DNA of 14,961 nt from Synergistaceae bacterium (GTDB lineage: Bacteria > Synergistota > Synergistia > Synergistales > Aminobacteriaceae): contig JAFTBT010000081.1 in NCBI GenBank assembly GCA_017455085.1, forward strand, positions 1 to 14,961, in the 5' to 3' direction. Every line of letters begins with the position of its first letter. Position 1 is the stretch's first letter. Positions 2,529-14,961 of this stretch are shown in pieces. The position numbers and the translations under genes are program-made. The notes below the pieces were generated by a model. That model was not told the origin of the DNA and made no database searches. It was given only the letters and a program-made list of their open reading frames with translations.

Positions 2529-3611
2529 TTATTTTCCTTTCTGGATAAAAATATCATGGAGGCTCTCATTATACGGCGGACGAGCTATTCCGTGTTCCGT
2601 AACTATCCCAGCAATCAGCTCATGACTCGTCACGTCAAACGCCGGGTTATACACTTTCACTCCCTCAGGTGCCATACGTTTGCTGTACCACATCTCCGTA
2701 ATCTCTTCCTCCGGTCTCTGCTCTATCACTATGTCTTTCCCAGTCTGAATGCTCATGTCGATAGTTGACGTAGGGCCAAGAACGTAAAAGGGTATTCCGT
2801 AATACTTCGCAAGTATCGCCACGCCAGACGTCCCGATTTTGTTGCAGGCATCCCCATTAGCGGCTACCCTGTCGCACCCAACGAACACAGCATCAATTTT
2901 CCCGTCCTTCATGACCTGAGAAGCCATGTTGTCGCATATCAGTGTAGTATCCACACCGTCAGCCATCAGCTCAAACGTCGAGAGCCTTGCACCCTGAAGC
3001 AGCGGGCGTGTTTCGTCGCAGTAGACTCTGAAATTCATTCCGCGTTCACGTCCCAAGTGTATCGGAGCTAAAGCTGTTCCGTATTTTGAGGTCGCGAGCT
3101 GTCCGGCGTTGCAGTGCGTGAGTATTCCGTCTCCGTCGTGAATGAGGGTTAATCCGTGTTCGCCGATCTTGCGGCACATGTCGATATCTTCGGACTTGAT
3201 GGCTATGCTTTCCCGGTGAAGCAGCTCCAGAATTTCGGGAATGGGTTTGTCGCGATTCTGGAGGGCAGTATTCTCCATGCGGGTGAGTGCCCACGAGAGA
3301 TTTACTGCTGTGGGACGTGCGGAGTTGAGGTAGTCTTTAGCGTTGTGGAGCTGTGAGAAGAATGACTCGTGAGACTGTGATGGTTTTTGAGCGAGTATGT
3401 TCTTTGCGGTGAGGTAGAGTCCGAAAGCTGCGGCGATCCCGATTGCTGGAGCTCCCCTGACCTGAAGGGTATAGATAGCGTTGCGGATGTCGTGAATATC
3501 CGTGAGGTGAAGGGTGATAATTTCGTTTGGGAGGCGTGTTTGGTCGAGGATGAGTAATGCATTTTCGTGTTCATCGAGCGCGACTGACTCATAGTTTAGT
3601 ATGCTGTTCAT
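2529..3611 (-). CDS. mtnA: S-methyl-5-thioribose-1-phosphate isomerase
   Basis: MtnA isomerises 5-methylthioribose-1-phosphate to 5-methylthioribulose-1-phosphate in methionine salvage, or in related disposal of SAM by-products. The 360-residue protein has the whole signature set of the eIF2B-like family: [14 protein letters not shown] (51-64), the catalytic Cys167 in [32 protein letters not shown] (197-210), LICDNMAS, and the catalytic Asp247 in [19 protein letters not shown]. The start at 3611 follows AGGAG at 8-9 nt spacing. It is the first gene of a two-gene unit with the formyltransferase. A TATAAT -10 on the minus strand (3652-3647) lies within the upstream tandem repeat. None of the other methionine salvage genes (mtnN, mtnK, mtnB-E) is in the window. 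The gene sits in reverse orientation between ribE and ribA. Confidence 0.95.
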
Positions 3612-3880
3612 GAAAATATCTCCTGTATCTGGGATTGTGTGATGTGATTATACCCTGAAAGTTATTGCCGAGTATGCCGCTGTTCATGAATATATGCCTC
3701 TGTGTTTGGGATTGTGTGATGTGATTATACCATGAAAGTTATTGCAGAGTATGCCGCTGTTCATGAATATATGCTCCTGTGTTTGTTACACTCCGAATGT
3801 TATTGCTGAATATACGTTAGGTGTCTCGTAGCTATGTATGTTGTTATTCACGAGTATATGCCTCTGTGTTTGGGATACTC
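3603..3880. repeat. Degenerate 76-77 bp tandem repeat covering the mtnA promoter and start codon
   Basis: Copies begin with GCTGTTCATGAA at 3603, 3679 and 3756 (periods 76 and 77). A more diverged fourth copy starts near 3838 (TGTTATTCACGAGTATATGCCTCTGTG). Copies 1 and 2 share long identical blocks, including GGGATTGTGTGATGTGAT and the minus-strand TATAAT. Copies 3 and 4 have lost the -10 region. Copy 1 contains the mtnA start codon and Shine-Dalgarno. Copies 2 and 3 carry the ATG, but copy 2's is out of frame with mtnA (76 nt away) and has lost the AGGAG. The array fills the 333-nt divergent gap between mtnA and the next plus-strand gene; the gap contains no convincing ORF. Confidence 0.85.
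3647..3652 (-). promoter_or_regulatory. Likely -10 element (TATAAT) for mtnA, duplicated in the next repeat copy
   Basis: A perfect TATAAT reads on the minus strand 35 nt upstream of the mtnA start, predicting a 5' leader of about 30 nt. No good -35 is seen at 17 bp (ATACTC). An identical GTATAATC occurs at 3729-3724 in the second tandem repeat copy, so a second start site one repeat further upstream is possible. Confidence 0.5.
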
Positions 3881-3956
3881 AGGCGTAATCATAGGCTGAT
3901 ATTACGTTTTCTGCCCGTTATGCTAATATACCCAGCAAAAGGAGATGACACGAAGC

Positions 3957-5184: not shown

Positions 5185-5280
5185 ATTTCTTGATTCACAG
5201 CTTAAGGAGCTATAGCTAGAAGTCGATTTAGTGTAATAACGTACTCTAATCCGTAAAAAAAAATCGAGACAAAATTCTAT

Positions 5281-5521
5281 AAAGGAGGTTAGAATCTGCT
5301 ACACAGGGTTAGAGGGTGGGTAGTGCAAGTCAAAGCACTATAAATATCGAAACATGATAGCTGTAACAAGCAAATCACTACCGATGGCTAGTCGGGAAGT
5401 CAAGCCTCCGGACTGTCGGACAAACTTTAGTAGCTTCGGCCAAAGAGGACAGGTTGAACGAGGAATACTCGAAAGAGTGTAACAGCACATTATTACACTT
5501 TTTACGTAGCAGGATACACAC
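5281..5521 (+). ncRNA. Structured RNA leader inserted between Shine-Dalgarno and start codon of ribH (element A)
   Basis: The 356-nt gap between ribA and ribH holds no credible ORF. AAAGGAGG lies at 5281-5288. Six nt later TCTGCTAC (5295-5302) can pair with GTAGCAGG (5506-5513), an 8-bp stem with one U-G pair, leaving only ATACACAC before the GTG start at 5522. Folding the 219-nt insert away would put the SD about 14 nt from the start. Inside are GGTAGTG/CACTACC and the competing TAGTGC/GCACTA, then a 3' domain shared with the leader at 13464-13783: GGGAAGTCaAGCCTCCGGA (about 5394-5412), TAGTAGC, GGAC, TTGAACGAGGAAT (5454-5466), a GAAA-loop hairpin ACTC-GAAA-GAGT, and GTGTAA/TTACAC. AGGA (5511-5514) could be a weak local SD but partly lies within the terminal stem. 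No FMN-riboswitch core is visible. The first 115 nt (5166-5280) hold only an AT-rich stretch with nine A. Confidence 0.7.
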
Positions 5522-6025
5522 GTGAAAATCACAGAAGGTAAATTAATCGGCACAGGTCTTAACATCGGCATAGTCGCATCACGTTTCAACGAACTGGTCA
5601 CTTCCCGGCTCATTGACGGCGCAAAAGACGCACTCATCCGCCATGATGTTTCAGCAAGCGCAATAGATATTTTCTGGGCACCCGGAGCTTGGGAGCTGCC
5701 ACTAGTCGCTCAGGAGCTCGCACTCACAGGCAAGTATGACGCAATTATCGCACTCGGTGCAGTGATTCGCGGAGACACCCCGCACTTCGACTACGTAGCC
5801 GCTGAGGCCTCGAAAGGTCTCGCAAGCGTCGGCCTGAACCACAGAGTCCCGGTGCTGTTCGGAGTCCTGACGTGTGACACACTGGATCAGGCACTCATCC
5901 GTGCAGGGAGCAAGGCCGGCAACAAAGGAGCAGACTGTGCTGTGGGAGCTATCGAGATGGCTAACTTACTGCGCAACATCCGTAAACAGAATAATGACGC
6001 GGAGACAACATCGGCCAAGTGCTGA
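5522..6025 (+). CDS. ribH: 6,7-dimethyl-8-ribityllumazine synthase
   Basis: RibH condenses 5-amino-6-ribitylaminouracil with 3,4-dihydroxy-2-butanone-4-phosphate to give lumazine, the substrate of RibE. The 167-residue protein shows GIVASRFNELVTSRLIDGA, the substrate loop APGAWELPLVAQ (53-64), ALGAVIRGDTPHFDYV with the catalytic His88, and FGVLTCDT; KAGNKG near the C-terminus is the family's phosphate/ribityl region. The start is GTG 5522, giving the normal MKITEGKL N-terminus. Only AGGA lies close by, and the strong AAAGGAGG is 233 nt upstream, across the structured leader. The gene ends the canonical ribD-E-A-H order. A short 20-residue tail after the family core ends in AETTSAKC. Confidence 0.95.
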   Translation: MKITEGKLIGTGLNIGIVASRFNELVTSRLIDGAKDALIRHDVSASAIDIFWAPGAWELPLVAQELALTGKYDAIIALGAVIRGDTPHFDYVAAEASKGLASVGLNHRVPVLFGVLTCDTLDQALIRAGSKAGNKGADCAVGAIEMANLLRNIRKQNNDAETTSAKC

Positions 6026-6070
6026 GGCAAATTAGCTGTACATTTATAATACGTATCACTCATAATTAAC

Positions 6071-9083
<3,013 letters not shown>

Positions 9084-9098
9084 CAGTCGAAAAATTTG

Positions 9099-9133
9099 CT
9101 CCCCCTTTGGGAAAAACCGGAGGGGGATTTTTT
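9099..9133. terminator. Rho-independent terminator, probably bidirectional, between convergent genes
   Basis: CTCCCCC(T) and (A)GGGGG close a GC-rich hairpin around TTTGGGAAAAACCGG, followed on the plus strand by ATTTTTTG. It starts 15 nt after the glycosyltransferase stop. On the minus strand the hairpin is followed by GCAAATTTTTC, so it can also end the convergent transcript whose frame stops at 9139. Confidence 0.9.
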
Positions 9134-9138
9134 GTGCG

Positions 9139-9962
9139 TTAGTGCTTTATAGCTATGGAGGGTGTATAGATTATGTTTTTCCTGAGCCACACAGACACGG
9201 TGATAATTTTGTTTTCCGGCACTGTAGATATGGGGGCTGCCTGTATCATCATAAAACTCTGCGATAGTGTCGTCTTCTGAAGGCTCATTGCTTCCGGCCA
9301 AGTAGAATAATTCTTTGCCGGTGTAGGTGTCATCACTGAGAGTTACTGTGAAGTCGTACATACCTGACTCGTCAACGCTGATCGTCCCCAATTCCGCAGC
9401 AATGGTATATTCTCCGGTGAAAACATCATTATTCACATCATCAACAACATCAATCACATCAACAACATCATGCACATTCACATCAACAACATCATTCACA
9501 TCAACGTCATCTATAGCTGCACCATGACGAGAGACATTCTGCAACATATACCCTGTTTCACTTTCTGCTGCCTGCTGTGTAGTAGCTGCTGAGACTGTGA
9601 GCTTGTAGGTTTTCTTTGCGGTCTTGGCCGAATTTGCAGCACTGACCTTCACCGAAAACTTTCCTGACTGTGTGGGAGTCCCTGAGATTGTGCCGTTGGT
9701 GTTCATGCTCAAGCCCGAAGGCAGTCCTGTAGCTGACCATGTTATCGCCGGAGTGCCAGTAGCTGCGAGGTCAAAGCTGTATGCATTTCCCTGTGAAGCG
9801 TCCGGAAGTTTCTTAGTGGTAATTTTCGGAGCAATGGCCTTGATTGTGAGTGAGTAGTCGACTGATGCAACCCCTGCGATGTTGTAGGCAATGGCAGTAA
9901 TTTTTCTGTCGGTGCAGACTTCGGAAGGAGTGCCTGTGATTTTGTTGGTGCTGGTGTCGAAC
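9139..9962 (-). pseudogene. C-terminal fragment: second half of Ig repeat 5, repeat 6, Asp/Val-rich tract and terminal domain
   Basis: In the shifted frame, FDTSTNKITGTPSEV resumes repeat 5, and APKITTKKLPDASQG ... GLSMNTNGTISGTP is repeat 6. The low-complexity DVVDVN segment (about 9424-9519) and TGEYTIAAELGTISVDESGMYDFTVTLSD follow. Without correction the frame runs on after DDTG to a nonsense tail ending at 9080. With one base removed from the G5 tract it ends in TVPENKIITVSVWLRKNIIY...IAIKH at 9139, which is the coherent end of the domain. Confidence 0.65.
9424..9519. repeat. Short in-frame tandem repeats encoding an Asp/Val-rich tract
   Basis: Plus-strand units of the form CATCAACAA / CATCAATCA / CATTCACAT repeat with 9-12 bp spacing and stay a multiple of three. 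On the coding strand they give alternating Asp-Val with Asn and His (DDVDVNDVVDVNVHDVVDV). This acidic spacer separates the last Ig repeat from the terminal domain and is not part of any fold I recognise. Confidence 0.8.
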
Positions 9963-11465
9963 GATAGATAACCCTTCCGGCAGATCTCCAGAGAGCAGCA
10001 GAGTTATCGGCTCAGTGCCTTTAACCTTGATGGCTTTCGAGTATTGTTTTCCGAACTTGCCAGCCTTTAGGGATTTGGGGGAAATTTTGGGAAATATAGC
10101 GTTGACGTTGAGGGTGAAGACTTTGGAGACCTCACCGACGGGATTGCTGAGAGTTACGCGAACCATGCCGGAGTCGTTTGTGGGAGGAGTGCCGAGTAGT
10201 TTTGCGTTGTCTGCCTCAAACAGAGTGATTCCCTGCGGAAGATGGCCTTCGAGTTCCCACGTGAGGGGTTTGGAGCCAGAGCTTTTGATGGTTTCCTTGT
10301 ACTTTTTTGCAACAGTAGCGTCCTTGAGGGCTTGTGTAGTGATTTCTGGAAGTTTGCAGACGTTGAGTGTGAGTGTTCTGGTTTCTTTGCCGTAATCGTT
10401 TGAGACGGTGAAGGAGATTTTGGCGGCTTTTGCTTTAGTGGGAGTGCCGGTGATGAGTCCTGAATCGGTCATTGTGAGACCTTTGGGAAGTTTTTTCTTG
10501 GCCGTCCATGTGAATGGAGGAGTCCCTAGAGCGATGAGCTGGCAGATGTATTCTTCACCTTGAGTAGCGGGGTAAGGGTTTTCTGGCAGGATAGCGGGGC
10601 GTGTTTTTGTTGGGGCTTCTAGTACGGTGATGGAGAGATCTTTAGAGGTAGAGCCTGCGGAGTTCGTGACGTAGACGGTGAAGGGTGTGGTGTCTGCTGT
10701 GGTAGGAGTGCCGTAGATGTAGCCCGAAGTGGTGAGTGTGAGGCCGTCAGGTAGTGATGAGTCTGAAGCCAGAGACCACGTGAGGGGAGTAGTGCCTGAG
10801 GCTGTGAGCTTGAAGCCGTAGGGAGAGGAGGTGTATGCGGTGTTGAGAAAGTCGGTAGTGATTTTTGGTGAGCGGTAAGCGGTGAAGGGGATGATGATGG
10901 TGAAGAGGCGGGAGGTGGAGCCTGCGGAGTTTGAGGCAGTGACGGTGAAGGGGAATGCTCCGGGGGTTGTGGGAGTGCCTGAGATTGTGCCTGATGAGTC
11001 GAGAGTGAGGCCGGTAGGCAGAGATCCGGAGGAAAGAGTCCACGTGATGGGGGAAGTTCCGATGGCGGAGAGTGTTGCGGAGTAGGAGACATCGACAGAG
11101 GCGGAGGGGAGGGATGAGGTTGTGATGATGGGAGTTGACGAGGCGGAGCTGTCAGTGTGATCCGTATCATTTACATCCCCAGAATAAGCTGATGAACCAT
11201 AAGCAGGATACACCCTAACACTTGTTCTAGAATATATTACATGTGAGTTTCCGGTAGCTAACCCAATTTTAATATATTCAAGCTGTTTTAAGTCAGGATT
11301 CGAAAAATGTATAATGCATTTATCTGCAGAGGTGTATGTAGTTGAAGGTACAGTATTATCAACATATGCGTATTTTGCTTCAGCAGTCCCTCCATTATTT
11401 CTTAATCCAAAATTATAGTCAGTCCAGAAGTCAGTATAATTGAAATCAAAGCCATTATCTTTACT
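9813..11465 (-). pseudogene. Middle fragment: linker and five putative-Ig repeats, same frame as the N-terminal fragment
   Basis: After the amber codon the same frame stays open for 550 codons: a unique region (SKDNGFDFNYTDFW ... YSRTSVRVYPAYGS, about 11465-11150), then repeats 1-4 complete and the first half of repeat 5, up to GDLPEGLS near 9970. The GATA duplication then throws the frame into a His/Arg-rich nonsense tail ending at 9813. A GTG at 11213 could start an isolated product but has no SD and would lack a signal peptide, so translation of this part depends on readthrough or repair. Confidence 0.7.
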
Positions 11466-12014
11466 CTATACAGGAAAATCACAATACAATTCCTCCAATG
11501 CTCTAAAATAATTTCCAAGTTGGACAGCATGAAATCTATTATTGAAACAATGCAGAGTTCTTAGTGTTTCATTAGAACTAGAAAATCTGCGTAAACTTAA
11601 ATTCTTCAACCTGTTGTTATCACAAAATATTTTTTCTAACGCCCAATTTTCGTCCAAATAAAGTATCACTAATTGATTACTAGAACAGTCCAATACCTTC
11701 AAAGCTGTGTTTTGTGTTACATCCAAACCAGATAATTTATTGTGAGAGCAGTTCAGATGAGTAAGTTTTACTAAAAACTCTATGCCTTTCAGACTAGATA
11801 TAGACTTATAACTTACATCCATTGATGTTGTTATGCCAATTTCGGCACCATCAAGTACATCATCGTTATTGCTGTCGATATTATATTTAACATATTCCCG
11901 AAAGTTCACATCAGGGAAATTAGTCTCGTTGATCTCCACGTCAGCAAACCCTTCACTACACACCGCCAGCAACATTACCGCCAGCAACATCAACCTGCAA
12001 AAACTCTTCTTCAT
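11466..12014 (-). CDS. N-terminal fragment: signal peptide plus leucine-rich repeats (ends at amber codon)
   Basis: As it stands this gives a secreted 182-residue product. MKKSFCRLMLLAVMLLAVCSEGFA is a signal peptide with likely cleavage after GFA; then INETNFPDVNFREYV leads into a DxNxDxxLD-like segment (NIDSNNDDVLDGAEI) and LRR units with the LxxLDCSxNxL pattern (THLNCSHNKLSGLDVTQN, KVLDCSSNQL, EKIFCDNNRL, RTLHCFNNRF). The start is ATG 12014, with GGAGG 8 nt upstream. The longer ATG at 12029 overlaps that SD. It could be the functional product if the amber codon is genuine. Confidence 0.75.
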   Translation of the reverse strand: MKKSFCRLMLLAVMLLAVCSEGFADVEINETNFPDVNFREYVKYNIDSNNDDVLDGAEIGITTSMDVSYKSISSLKGIEFLVKLTHLNCSHNKLSGLDVTQNTALKVLDCSSNQLVILYLDENWALEKIFCDNNRLKNLSLRRFSSSNETLRTLHCFNNRFHAVQLGNYFRALEELYCDFPV

Positions 12015-12079
12015 CGTTATTGCCTCCATATTATTTTGTGAATTGGGATATATACATCATTATCGTTTATTACTGCACA

Positions 12080-12147: not shown

Positions 12148-13455
12148 CTATTGCGCTATCCTCGTCAGTCCAGAAAAACTATACGTACACTTCAGCGTCA
12201 CTTCCGGCGCATCCATCGTAATATCCCTATACGCCGGACCAGCATAGTTCCCCATGCCGCCAATGTTGTACACCTTGCTCATGTCCCAGCCTCTCGCACT
12301 CAGAATCTTCATCAGGTTTCCTACTCTTCCGCCCCCCTGACACATCAAGAATATCACCTTGTTCTTCGGGAAAAGGGCTGCCAATATCTCGTCAGACTCC
12401 TTATACACCGGCACAGGCTCATCCGTCGTTCCACCATACAGCTGCGGCAGTGAAGAGTCCTTGTGTGCGTCCGCGTTGAAGATCAGCGCAAGGTACGGTA
12501 TGCACTCAAAATTCCGCAGGTGCTTCTTAGAGTAGTCCTCAAACTCCCGGATGTCTATATACATCACATCGCTCCGGCCAAGATACTGCTTCAAGTTCTC
12601 GTTGGTGATCGCTGAACACGTCGGCCCAAAGTTTCCCGGCTCACATATCGTGTCTTCAGTGTCGTCCTTATTGGCCTTGTACTTCTTCGTGGTGTCCACC
12701 GGCGCAGGAAGTTCCGTAGTCTCCTTCACAGCACTTGCTACACTGGCTTTAGGTGCTGCGGTTGCCTTCTTGCCCTCGAAAATCTTCCTGAGTTCCACTG
12801 CCGCAGGGTCTCCGTCAAAAAATGAGTCCGTTGCATGATACGCGAATAGTGCCTGAATCGCCCGCAGGTTATTGTTTGACGAAACTGTTGCACCTGTCCA
12901 CGCGTCTACGTCGAAGTCCTTGAAGTCCTTGATCTCGTTATAGCCCTTCAGCTCCGAGTACTTTTTGCCGATGAAGTAAGGGAACATCTCCGCCTTGAAC
13001 TTCTCATACGTAGCTTTAGGTGCTATCGGTGAAGGGTTGCTGTCTCCCCAGAATCCCCCCAAATAGTGGCCAGTGGAGTCAGAGTCGTAGCTGAGGAATT
13101 TCACTTCTGCGTCATCGATTTTCCCGCTGGAGGGCAACGTCAGCTCAACATACGCTGTCGACCACACATTGAGGTCTGCTGGGCGGCATGTGCAGGCTAT
13201 GAATGTGATCTGATACTTCACGTAGTTTCTGGCTACATACTTGAACGGGACGAACGCGTAAAATAGATCCTCTTCCTTTGGGCCGTCTATGTGGTTGAAG
13301 GGGATCACGGCGACCTGATTGGCTTTTGTGCCTTCACCGAGACGGGCTGATGTGTTGAGGAAGTTGTTCACATCGCTTAGGGACAGTTCATCGGCGGAAG
13401 CAACAGCGGCTAACACAAAAACGAGCAGAATAAACACAAATAATTTTTTGGACAT
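12148..13455 (-). CDS. Secreted protein with FMN_bind-like region and rhodanese domain
   Basis: This 435-residue protein opens with a signal peptide (MSKKLFVFILLVFVLAAVASA, likely cut before DELSL) and is presumably exported. The first half ends in a segment like the FMN-binding domain of NqrC/RnfG proteins: FKDFDVDAWTGATVSSNNNLRAI (178-200). There D-x-W-T-G-A-T-x-S-S resembles the S/T-G-A-T-x-T/S flavinylation motif, with Thr190 as candidate FMN attachment residue. A Lys/Thr/Pro linker (about 229-265) leads to a rhodanese-like domain (about 270-420) with VMYIDIREFEDYSKKHL and the catalytic-loop candidate Cys372 in MCQGGGRVGNLMKIL. The combination suggests an extracytoplasmic sulfur- or redox-related role; the substrate is unknown. 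The only strong SD is 331 nt upstream across a structured leader; a weak GGA lies 8-9 nt before ATG. A terminator follows. Confidence 0.8.
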   Translation of the reverse strand: MSKKLFVFILLVFVLAAVASADELSLSDVNNFLNTSARLGEGTKANQVAVIPFNHIDGPKEEDLFYAFVPFKYVARNYVKYQITFIACTCRPADLNVWSTAYVELTLPSSGKIDDAEVKFLSYDSDSTGHYLGGFWGDSNPSPIAPKATYEKFKAEMFPYFIGKKYSELKGYNEIKDFKDFDVDAWTGATVSSNNNLRAIQALFAYHATDSFFDGDPAAVELRKIFEGKKATAAPKASVASAVKETTELPAPVDTTKKYKANKDDTEDTICEPGNFGPTCSAITNENLKQYLGRSDVMYIDIREFEDYSKKHLRNFECIPYLALIFNADAHKDSSLPQLYGGTTDEPVPVYKESDEILAALFPKNKVIFLMCQGGGRVGNLMKILSARGWDMSKVYNIGGMGNYAGPAYRDITMDAPEVTLKCTYSFSGLTRIAQ

Positions 13456-13794
13456 AGTTATTCCGTTACAGAAGACTTATAACATTTCTGTATGCTTCAT
13501 TCCTTGTTCAACGCGTCCGCTTTCACTGGTGAAACTGGCTACTTACGTTTGGTGAAACGCTCCGAAGGCTCCAGTCCCAGCCTAGCATGGGCTGCCCAGC
13601 TAACGTACGGGTATATAATTCTCTACGCATTGATAAGGTTGAGTATTTCACAGACAGAACCATATAACAGCATTTTTCTCTGTCCAACTGCCTATACCCA
13701 GTTCTCAATGAGACACCAATTAAGGCAGGTTATACCAATCGTTAGCTAGGAAATAAACTTGAAGAGCTAAAGTCTCTGTAACGTGTCCTCCTTT
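13456..13794 (-). ncRNA. Structured RNA leader inserted between Shine-Dalgarno and start codon (element B)
   Basis: On the minus strand AAAGGAGG (13794-13787) is followed by ACA and then CGTTACAGAGACTT (13783-13770), which pairs with AAGTCTTCTGTAACG (13478-13464): 14 bp with one bulged base. Eight nt (GAATAACT) then lead to ATG 13455, so looping out the 320-nt insert leaves 11 nt between SD and start. Inner stems are CCTAGCTAACG with CGTTAGCTGGG (11 bp, one G-U), CTGCCT/AGGCAG, GGGTATA/TATACCC (crossing the previous stem, a pseudoknot), GACAGA/TCTGTC, CGTTT-cacc-AAACG and TTTCAC-ca-GTGAAA. The 3' domain shares blocks, in the same order, with the ribH leader: GGGACTGgAGCCTTCGGA, AAGTAGC, GGAC, TTGAACAAGGAAT. 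There is no credible ORF in this 430-nt gap; its distal part (13795-13887) is AT-rich and should hold the promoter, but no clear one is seen. Confidence 0.72.
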
Positions 13795-13887
13795 CATTAA
13801 AATGATGTTGATTGTGAATTATTGTGAAGTATTAGAATTGTAACATATAGGCATCAGATAGAGACATGAATATTTTCCGGCAACACC

Positions 13888-14784: not shown

Positions 14785-14961
14785 CATAATGTGGCGGCTA
14801 AACACCATCATAACGGGGCGGCTAAACACCATCCATAACGGGGCGGCTAAACACCATCCATAACGGGGCGGCTAAACACCATCATAACGGGGCGGCTAAA
14901 CACCATCATAACGGGGCGGCTAAACACCATCATAACGGGGCGGCTAAACACCATCCATAAC
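14785..14961. repeat. 24/25-bp tandem repeat array continuing past the window edge
   Basis: Units CATAACGGGGCGGCTAAACACCAT start at 14785 (variant ATGTGG), 14809, 14834, 14859, 14883, 14907, 14931 and 14956 (cut by the window end). Periods are 24, 25, 25, 24, 24, 24 and 25, the difference being one extra C at the junction. Copies 2-7 are identical in the core, so the array is young or homogenised. Both lengths mix, so no reading frame is kept through the array. There are no spacers, so it is not a CRISPR. Confidence 0.92.

Follow-up and report, generated by a model that had tools for sequence, protein, structure and literature searches.

How can a gene be translated when hundreds of nucleotides lie between a perfect Shine-Dalgarno (SD) sequence and the start codon? 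This question is raised by a stretch of 14,961 nt from a Synergistaceae bacterium (contig JAFTBT010000081.1), the whole of which is called the window here. A preliminary description of this DNA claimed that inserts closed by long stems separate the two signals ahead of more than one gene. For the open reading frame (ORF) labeled FMN_bind/rhodanese, this layout is confirmed. On the minus strand its leader (13463-13795 as a whole) reads AAAGGAGG (13794-13787), ACA, CGTTACAGAGACTT (13783-13770) and, on the far side of the insert, AAGTCTTCTGTAACG (13478-13464), the 8-nt GAATAACT and ATG (13455), as had been described. The closing stem is part of the minimum-energy fold (-105.4 kcal/mol, z -3.49, equaled by 0 of 100 shuffles). 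The predicted fold prolongs this stem and would pair the last GG of the SD with bases 3' of the AUG.

The ribH leader also carries a CTGCTAC/GTAGCAG stem downstream of AAAGGAGG in its minimum-energy fold (z -2.82, 2 of 200 shuffles equal). Collapsing the insert does bring SD and ATG close together, as had been proposed. A strong SD together with a transcription start shortly before 13455 had been named as an observation that would undo the proposal; no strong SD is present in the last 20 nt, where the best SD reaches -3.5 kcal/mol compared with -11.6 kcal/mol for the SD ahead of the stem. The features are collected in Table 1; the gene names ribH, serS, and rhodanese come from the preliminary description or were given by eye.

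Table 1. Features of the two long leaders and the serS leader in the window
Feature	Positions	Strand	Basis
Native SD of the ribH host gene, AAGGAG, which now flanks the element on its left	5204..5209	+	Sequence; ribH orthologues
B-type RAGATH-18 mini-element without tnpB	5210..5512	+	Ends compared with other elements
Element-borne SD, AAAGGAGG, ribH leader	5281..5288	+	Common to B elements at different genes
5' arm of closing stem, CTGCTAC, ribH leader	5296..5302	+	Minimum-energy fold
RAGATH-18 core, TnpB guide-RNA scaffold, ribH leader	5405..5465	+	RF03064, 57.2 bits (gathering score 44.9)
3' arm of closing stem and element right end, GTAGCAG	5506..5512	+	B right end; fold
ribH-like ORF, GTG start (name from preliminary description or by eye)	5522..6025	+	Relatives in 79/81 genomes
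SD of serS leader, AAAGGAGG, in probable B-type scar without guide RNA	6071..6078	+	Likeness to ribH element
Hairpin of the probable serS scar, with arms at approximately 6085-6091 and 6116-6122	6085..6122	+	Fold, -18.7 kcal/mol, z -2.38
ORF, FMN_bind/rhodanese (label from preliminary description)	12148..13455	-	ATG 7 nt 3' of right end
3' arm and right end of A-type element, AAGTCTTCTGTAACGG	13463..13478	-	Right-end consensus of subfamily A
RAGATH-18 core, TnpB guide-RNA scaffold, rhodanese leader	13500..13568	-	RF03064, 64.1 bits (gathering score 44.9)
5' arm of closing stem, CGTTACAGAGACTT, rhodanese leader	13770..13783	-	Right-end complement search, fold
Element-borne SD, AAAGGAGG, rhodanese leader	13787..13794	-	Sequence; duplex -11.6 kcal/mol

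RAGATH-18 (RF03064) is the only Rfam family to exceed its gathering score in the window, and it does so in the ribH and rhodanese leaders. A riboswitch or other cis-regulatory family was rejected on this ground. Ren et al. (2024, PMC11061315) showed RAGATH-18 to be the scaffold of the guide RNA that serves TnpB nucleases of the IS607 family. Judged by sequence, both long leaders are TnpB-less mini-elements of this IS607-type family in which the guide-RNA scaffold has been retained. They share with the elements treated in the main text of that paper the RF03064 scaffold, which ends at the right end, and an AGGAG-type left flank; TnpB itself is present in full-length relatives found here. In both window copies the scaffold lies at the right end. 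At ribH the target flank is G-rich, and comparison of borders and right ends indicates exchange at GG. The window copies differ from the published elements in lacking tnpB: they hold no tnpB-sized ORF, and they are therefore classified only as tnpB-less derivatives. When seven ORFs from related loci were scanned for domains, six had OrfB_IS605, TNB, and HTH domains, and the seventh was a host LytB gene.

RAGATH-18 is present in 36 of the 81 genomes of the same bacterial family (32 over the cut-off), with 14 matches in the nearest genome alone (13 over). It also occurs in 22 of 391 genomes (20 over) drawn from the class of a Clostridiales MAG, hereafter the Clostridia-class sample. Many of the genomes compared consist of many contigs. 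Among 120 loci read in the bacterial family, a right end could be named in all except one (L239), as it could for both window copies. Subfamily A elements end in CGG, mostly as ...TCTGTAACGG or ...TCAGTAACGG, whereas subfamilies B, C, and D (the last from one genome) end in ...TACGTAGCAG, ...ATCGTAGCGG, and ...TCAGTAGCAG, respectively. The window holds one A element, at rhodanese, and one B element, at ribH; the latter has a left end like those of L197, L219, and L210, and its right end, ...TTTTTACGTAGCAG, is common to subfamily B. Promoter-like -35/-10 sites were seen between the 5' arm and RAGATH-18 in copies such as L203 and L145, and also in the rhodanese leader of the window.

Several other features of the window were recorded. 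From 14785 to the end at 14961, units of some 24-26 bp (ATAACGGGGCGGCTAAACACCATC) are repeated in tandem, as noticed by eye, and imperfect repeats around CTGTGTTTGGGATTGTGTGATGTGATTATACC occupy 3600-3900, upstream of an ORF (2529-3611, minus strand) that is mtnA-like by eye. A run of eleven C residues at 2126-2136, within the minus-strand ORF 1720-2523, is possibly a phase-variation tract. A repeat-rich gene, labeled surface-protein-like by eye, spans 9080-12029 on the minus strand and is apparently split into ORFs 11466-12029, 9813-11213, and 9080-9712.

Ribosome-binding sites are landing pads of the RAGATH-18 family. An ORF of at least 70 codons starts 4-16 nt past the right end in 93 of the 119 elements that have at least 260 nt downstream (76 if only ATG is counted). 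The same spacing is found at 8.9% (ATG 4.5%) of 24,200 random positions, and at 20.4% (ATG 11.8%) of 754 GGAGG sites that lie elsewhere in these loci. In the window the distances are 9 nt to the GTG of ribH and 7 nt to the ATG of rhodanese. An ORF start also lies 4-16 nt past the right end in 22 of 28 elements of the Clostridia-class sample, a few of whose right ends are doubtful because they were called from short motifs. The preliminary description had staked its reading on further family members being found between SDs and start codons, and these counts establish that such a family exists. None of the six elements of subfamily C lies ahead of an ORF start by the 4-16 nt measure, and some are near the ATG of a shorter ORF. 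These copies (L124, L125, L136, L139, L167, and L232), which have no matching SD and arm and do not precede long ORFs, form a natural control.

The genes entered are diverse. Twenty downstream proteins, picked from the 93 because they looked recognizable and cut at about 250 residues, were scanned against NCBIfam; 19 matched a family, several of them (including rpoB, nusB, and lgt) below the curated whole-protein cut-off. They include rpoB, rpsO (twice), rplQ, rplS (twice), rplJ, gatB, dnaJ, nifU, and the genes for RNase J and HPF, as well as prs, minD, ilvC, nusB, lgt, a purH-like gene, and a malic enzyme gene. Because related genomes may have inherited an insertion at a given gene from a common ancestor, not all counts represent independent events. 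At gatB, an A mini-element is present in one genome (G045, L151) and a full-length B element, assigned by eye, in another (G037, L222), which suggests repeated entry at one SD.

The borders of the elements reveal which SD belongs to whom. IS607 insertion occurs at GG. The target motif (TAM) of RAGATH-18 TnpB proteins is given in the main text of Ren et al. as 5'-AGGAG for 18 of 22 strains and 5'-GAGGG for 4 of 22, and AG-rich TAMs are described there next to putative left ends (PMC11061315). In our loci the left border adjoins the host SD, as AAGGAG/CTATAGC at ribH and as GGAGG/CTAAGTAACAG in A elements. By comparison, the ribH element is bordered by AAGGAG at its left and by G/G at its right. 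Uninserted ribH orthologues have AGGAG or GGAGG 7-14 nt ahead of the start in 28 of 30 cases, the exceptions being AAAGGA (L259) and AAAGGGGG (L269), and the window ribH flanks, if joined, would give this same arrangement. The rhodanese ORF has matches in 10 of 81 genomes, nine of them nearly full length, and these nine long orthologues (L244-L252) carry GGAGG ahead of ATG, or AAAGGAGA in L244. A left-end motif search recognized neither a left end nor a host SD for the rhodanese element of the window. Taken together, the published target data and these flanks suggest that insertion is directed to SDs.

The perfect SD ahead of the closing stem had been taken in the preliminary description for the host's own, with the element starting directly after it. 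This is not supported, and the idea was dropped, because the sequence 5' of that SD is still element, being common to copies at different genes. Where the host SD survives, it lies about 55-80 nt upstream of the element SD; otherwise it has been lost. On the whole, the preliminary interpretation is thus partly supported.

What follows the element SD is an arm that matches the element's own right end. In a complement search extending up to 1800 nt upstream of each right end, with no SD required, the best complement in many A, B, and D elements follows a word such as GAAAGGAGGT. Of 149 elements, 6 were too short to be screened for a complement after an SD-like word within 640 nt; 92 of the other 143 passed, compared with 16 of 715 cases with shuffled right ends; 8.6% of random sites are preceded by an SD-like word. 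The 51 elements that failed include the ribH element of the window, whose 7-bp stem was outscored by another match. When instead the strongest SD of each element was chosen with complementarity ignored, in 72 of 142 elements the adjoining arm favored its own right end over 95% of foreign ones as a pairing partner, compared with 8.0% of 710 random sites. The claim that such stems exceed chance placement therefore holds. By group, this preference was found in 44 of 78 A, 13 of 19 B, and 6 of 11 D elements; the Clostridia-class sample shows the device more weakly (8 of 28), and subfamily C lacks it (1 of 6).

Base-pair exchanges point the same way. Within the selected 92 elements, pairing with the own right end averages -17.3 kcal/mol and with foreign right ends -9.5 kcal/mol, and 58 elements beat 95% of foreign right ends. 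The fourth base from the end forms UA in 67 and CG in 16 of them, and the eighth forms AU in 54, UA in 15, GC in 5, and CG in 4. The predicted closing stem thus covaries between subfamilies. Compensatory change had been proposed from the ribH and rhodanese leaders; covariation stands, but those two leaders belong to different subfamilies (B and A) and so are not a comparison within one. Pairing-preserving changes do occur within subfamily A as well: L182 has CCGTTACAAAA opposite TTTTGTAACGG, and L223 has CCGTTATAGA opposite TCTATAACGG.

Full-length elements carry the SD and arm inside tnpB, about 570-680 nt 5' of the right end. Several Clostridia-class elements are built likewise, for example L295, with GAAGGAGGTGTAAA-CCGTTATAAGAAA facing TTTCTTATAACGG. 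By eye, an Enterococcus italicus element (L284) has AAGGAGGG and a partly complementary arm 632 nt before its right end, and the automatic search picked another site there. Terminal inverted repeats were rejected as a full account of the stem, since the 5' arm is internal: it lies within tnpB in full-length elements and 53-81 nt past the left-end motif in 15 A mini-elements that have a good host SD. A measure of pairing with the right end would be expected in any case, given the imperfect inverted repeats that are known close to the ends of IS607 elements. The pairing of arm and right end beats the best pairing upstream of the element SD in 42 of 43 A mini-elements (-18.3 versus -10.5 kcal/mol), a contrast biased by preselection of this set for SD and complementarity.

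Might the elements merely prefer SDs as targets, with the SD-like word and arm being leftovers of tnpB coding sequence and the host gene translated weakly or by other means? In favor of this passive account, the TAM equals the SD core, and the SD-arm segment of full-length elements does consist of tnpB codons. A synonymous-codon test, quoted for rows with tnpB peptide motifs only because host ORFs upstream of mini-elements were scored as well, gives it some room: in none of the 14 rows of subfamily A does the SD exceed the strength that synonymous codon choice would produce (P 0.19-0.41). Values were better for B, at 0.01-0.24 (7 rows), and for D, at 0.04-0.06 (3 paralogous rows). For the stem, P was 0-0.33 in A, 0-0.34 in B, and 0.003-0.013 in D, values biased by selection because the best complement was chosen first. 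The test thus supports the arm, subject to that bias, and the SD of A weakly. However, the SD words sit in different tnpB reading frames in A and B, and the arms match their own right ends.

Mini-elements weigh further against a passive role. After exclusion of 31 A copies that have a tnpB-sized frame and of 5 that lie at the edge of a contig, 45 A mini-elements remained; with no SD required, 36 have an arm matching the right end and 9 have none. An SD of -6 kcal/mol or better precedes the arm in 33 of these 36, compared with 14.7% of 360 random windows. A weak host SD, or none, was found in 21 of the 36; a strong element SD persists in 19 of these 21, and 17 of the 21 precede a start codon. 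We rely on this unselected count rather than on an earlier one from the selected set of 43, in which the left-end motif was absent from 14 and the host SD weak in 7 of the other 29. After insertion, SD strength in the last 20 nt ahead of the start codon averages -3.4 kcal/mol (n=93, 15 reaching -6), compared with -10.6 kcal/mol in 33 uninserted orthologues of two genes (32 reaching -6). Element SDs average -11.0 kcal/mol (n=66, 64 reaching -6), in a set selected for SD and complementarity. Moreover, insertions stand before rpoB and ribosomal protein genes, where the local SD is weak. We therefore consider the passive account unlikely.

The serS leader of the window (6026-6133) looks like the scar of a B-type element that has lost its guide RNA and kept the SD, a hairpin, and the start codon. 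Its AAAGGAGGATAGATTCTGCT aligns with AAAGGAGGTTAGAATCTGCT of the ribH element, and it has no RF03064 match. The hairpin has about 7-8 bp, with only about 25 nt between the arms (z -2.38, 4 of 200 shuffles equal), and the predicted fold pairs part of the SD. The serS genes of four relatives (L001-L004) have no insert or leader of this kind, and the serS-like protein of the contig is 86% identical to that of Synergistaceae MAG RGIG3237. This putative scar is a single example, and one exact pattern with a 5-35 nt loop found no short A-type scars in 81 genomes. Retention of the element SD where the host SD is gone, and of SD, hairpin, and start codon in the serS scar, would be the expected residue of selection for host translation.

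A different way to spare the host gene would be splicing, in which the insert is a self-splicing intron that rejoins SD and start codon. IStrons of group B belong to the IS607 elements and occupy GG-containing targets (PMC4227781), and the insert does lie where splicing would restore a site. Yet Rfam matches included no group I or group II intron in the two leaders up to an E-value of 5 or in 16 related loci up to 0.1, and such introns were rejected. The serS scar keeps its SD and hairpin with about 25 nt between the arms, and splicing at the borders would restore the host SD and leave the internal one without purpose. Splicing is therefore highly improbable here. The elements resemble group B IStrons in being IS607-type elements that would spare the host gene at the RNA level, but the sparing would act in translation rather than in splicing, and no group I intron was found.

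Finally, the arm could be an antisense lock on the guide RNA that serves TnpB autoregulation, or the leader a TnpB-controlled switch for the host gene. The main text on the published structure describes a pseudoknot between the 3' and 5' flanks of the guide scaffold (PMC11061315), and by sequence a CGTTAG segment of A-type leaders could pair with the right end likewise. Of 43 A mini-elements, 28 have promoter-like sites in the loop, compared with 19.9% of shuffled loops, and the guide RNA may have a promoter of its own there that starts after the SD. Such a regulatory role leaves unexplained both the strong SD directly before the arm and its retention in copies without tnpB, and we give it as little credence as splicing.

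The explanation that we regard as probable is that guide-RNA elements inserted after a host SD carry, in their own SD and stem, a split ribosome-binding site for the host gene. Given what the sequences establish (element identity, position, the element-borne SD, the covarying arms, and an SD kept after loss of the host SD), events could unfold as follows. An IS607-type TnpB element, in the window now reduced to its guide-RNA scaffold, would enter directly after a host SD because the AGGAG target motif and the GG exchange site coincide with it. Insertion would part the host SD from its start codon, and the element would then supply a strong SD of its own, with an arm behind it that complements the element's right end. 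A long-range stem in the transcript would close off the guide RNA, enclosing about 210-360 nt in mini-elements and about 570-680 nt (tnpB and guide RNA) in full-length ones. The predicted result is an SD, a few nucleotides, the stem, mostly 6-13 nt, and the start codon, and the ribosome would use the element SD to translate the host gene. Guide-RNA folding, which needs the same right end, would compete with the closing stem.

A proven precedent for the split-site mechanism exists in phage T4 genes 38 and 25, where folding of the RNA that separates SD and AUG reduces the effective spacing from 22 to 5 nt and from 27 to 11 nt, respectively (PMC3014915). The predicted folds and matching arms here would form just such a structure joining SD and start codon. 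The collapsed spacing is long relative to T4, with a median of 14.5 nt (quartiles 12 and 16, n=66) compared with 11 nt for gene 25 and 5 nt for gene 38. The T4 structures span 22-27 nt and are gene-specific, whereas those proposed here would span about 210-680 nt, are mobile, precede unrelated genes, and enclose a guide RNA. The main text of PMC11061315 uses none of the terms Shine-Dalgarno, start codon, insertion site, and ribosom-, and its passages describe no element-borne SD with a right-end complement. The literature searched, from which subscription papers mostly fell outside coverage so that novelty is not proven, contains no link between TnpB or RAGATH-18 and insertion at SDs; a paper in which both TnpB and Shine-Dalgarno occur deals with a different subject.

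More broadly, and only as a conjecture that falls somewhat short of an even chance, RAGATH-18 TnpB elements of Synergistota and Bacillota may be translation-sparing transposons. Ribosome-binding sites would serve as their landing pads, and tnpB would encode a portable split ribosome-binding site able to restore the translation of any gene entered, even rpoB. The shared right end would exclude simultaneous guide-RNA formation, making host translation and guide-RNA formation mutually exclusive. A conflict between transposon introns and guide RNAs was reportedly described in a 2024 paper. If the conjecture is true, essential genes could become TnpB-responsive, and a transposon would be seen to neutralize its own damage at translation, whereas IStrons achieve this by splicing. 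The recognition of AGGAG by a family of RNA-guided nucleases would have an explanation, and nature would offer an example of a ribosome linking an SD and a start codon that lie hundreds of nucleotides apart. Genes downstream of RAGATH-18 would then need re-annotation of their starts and leaders.
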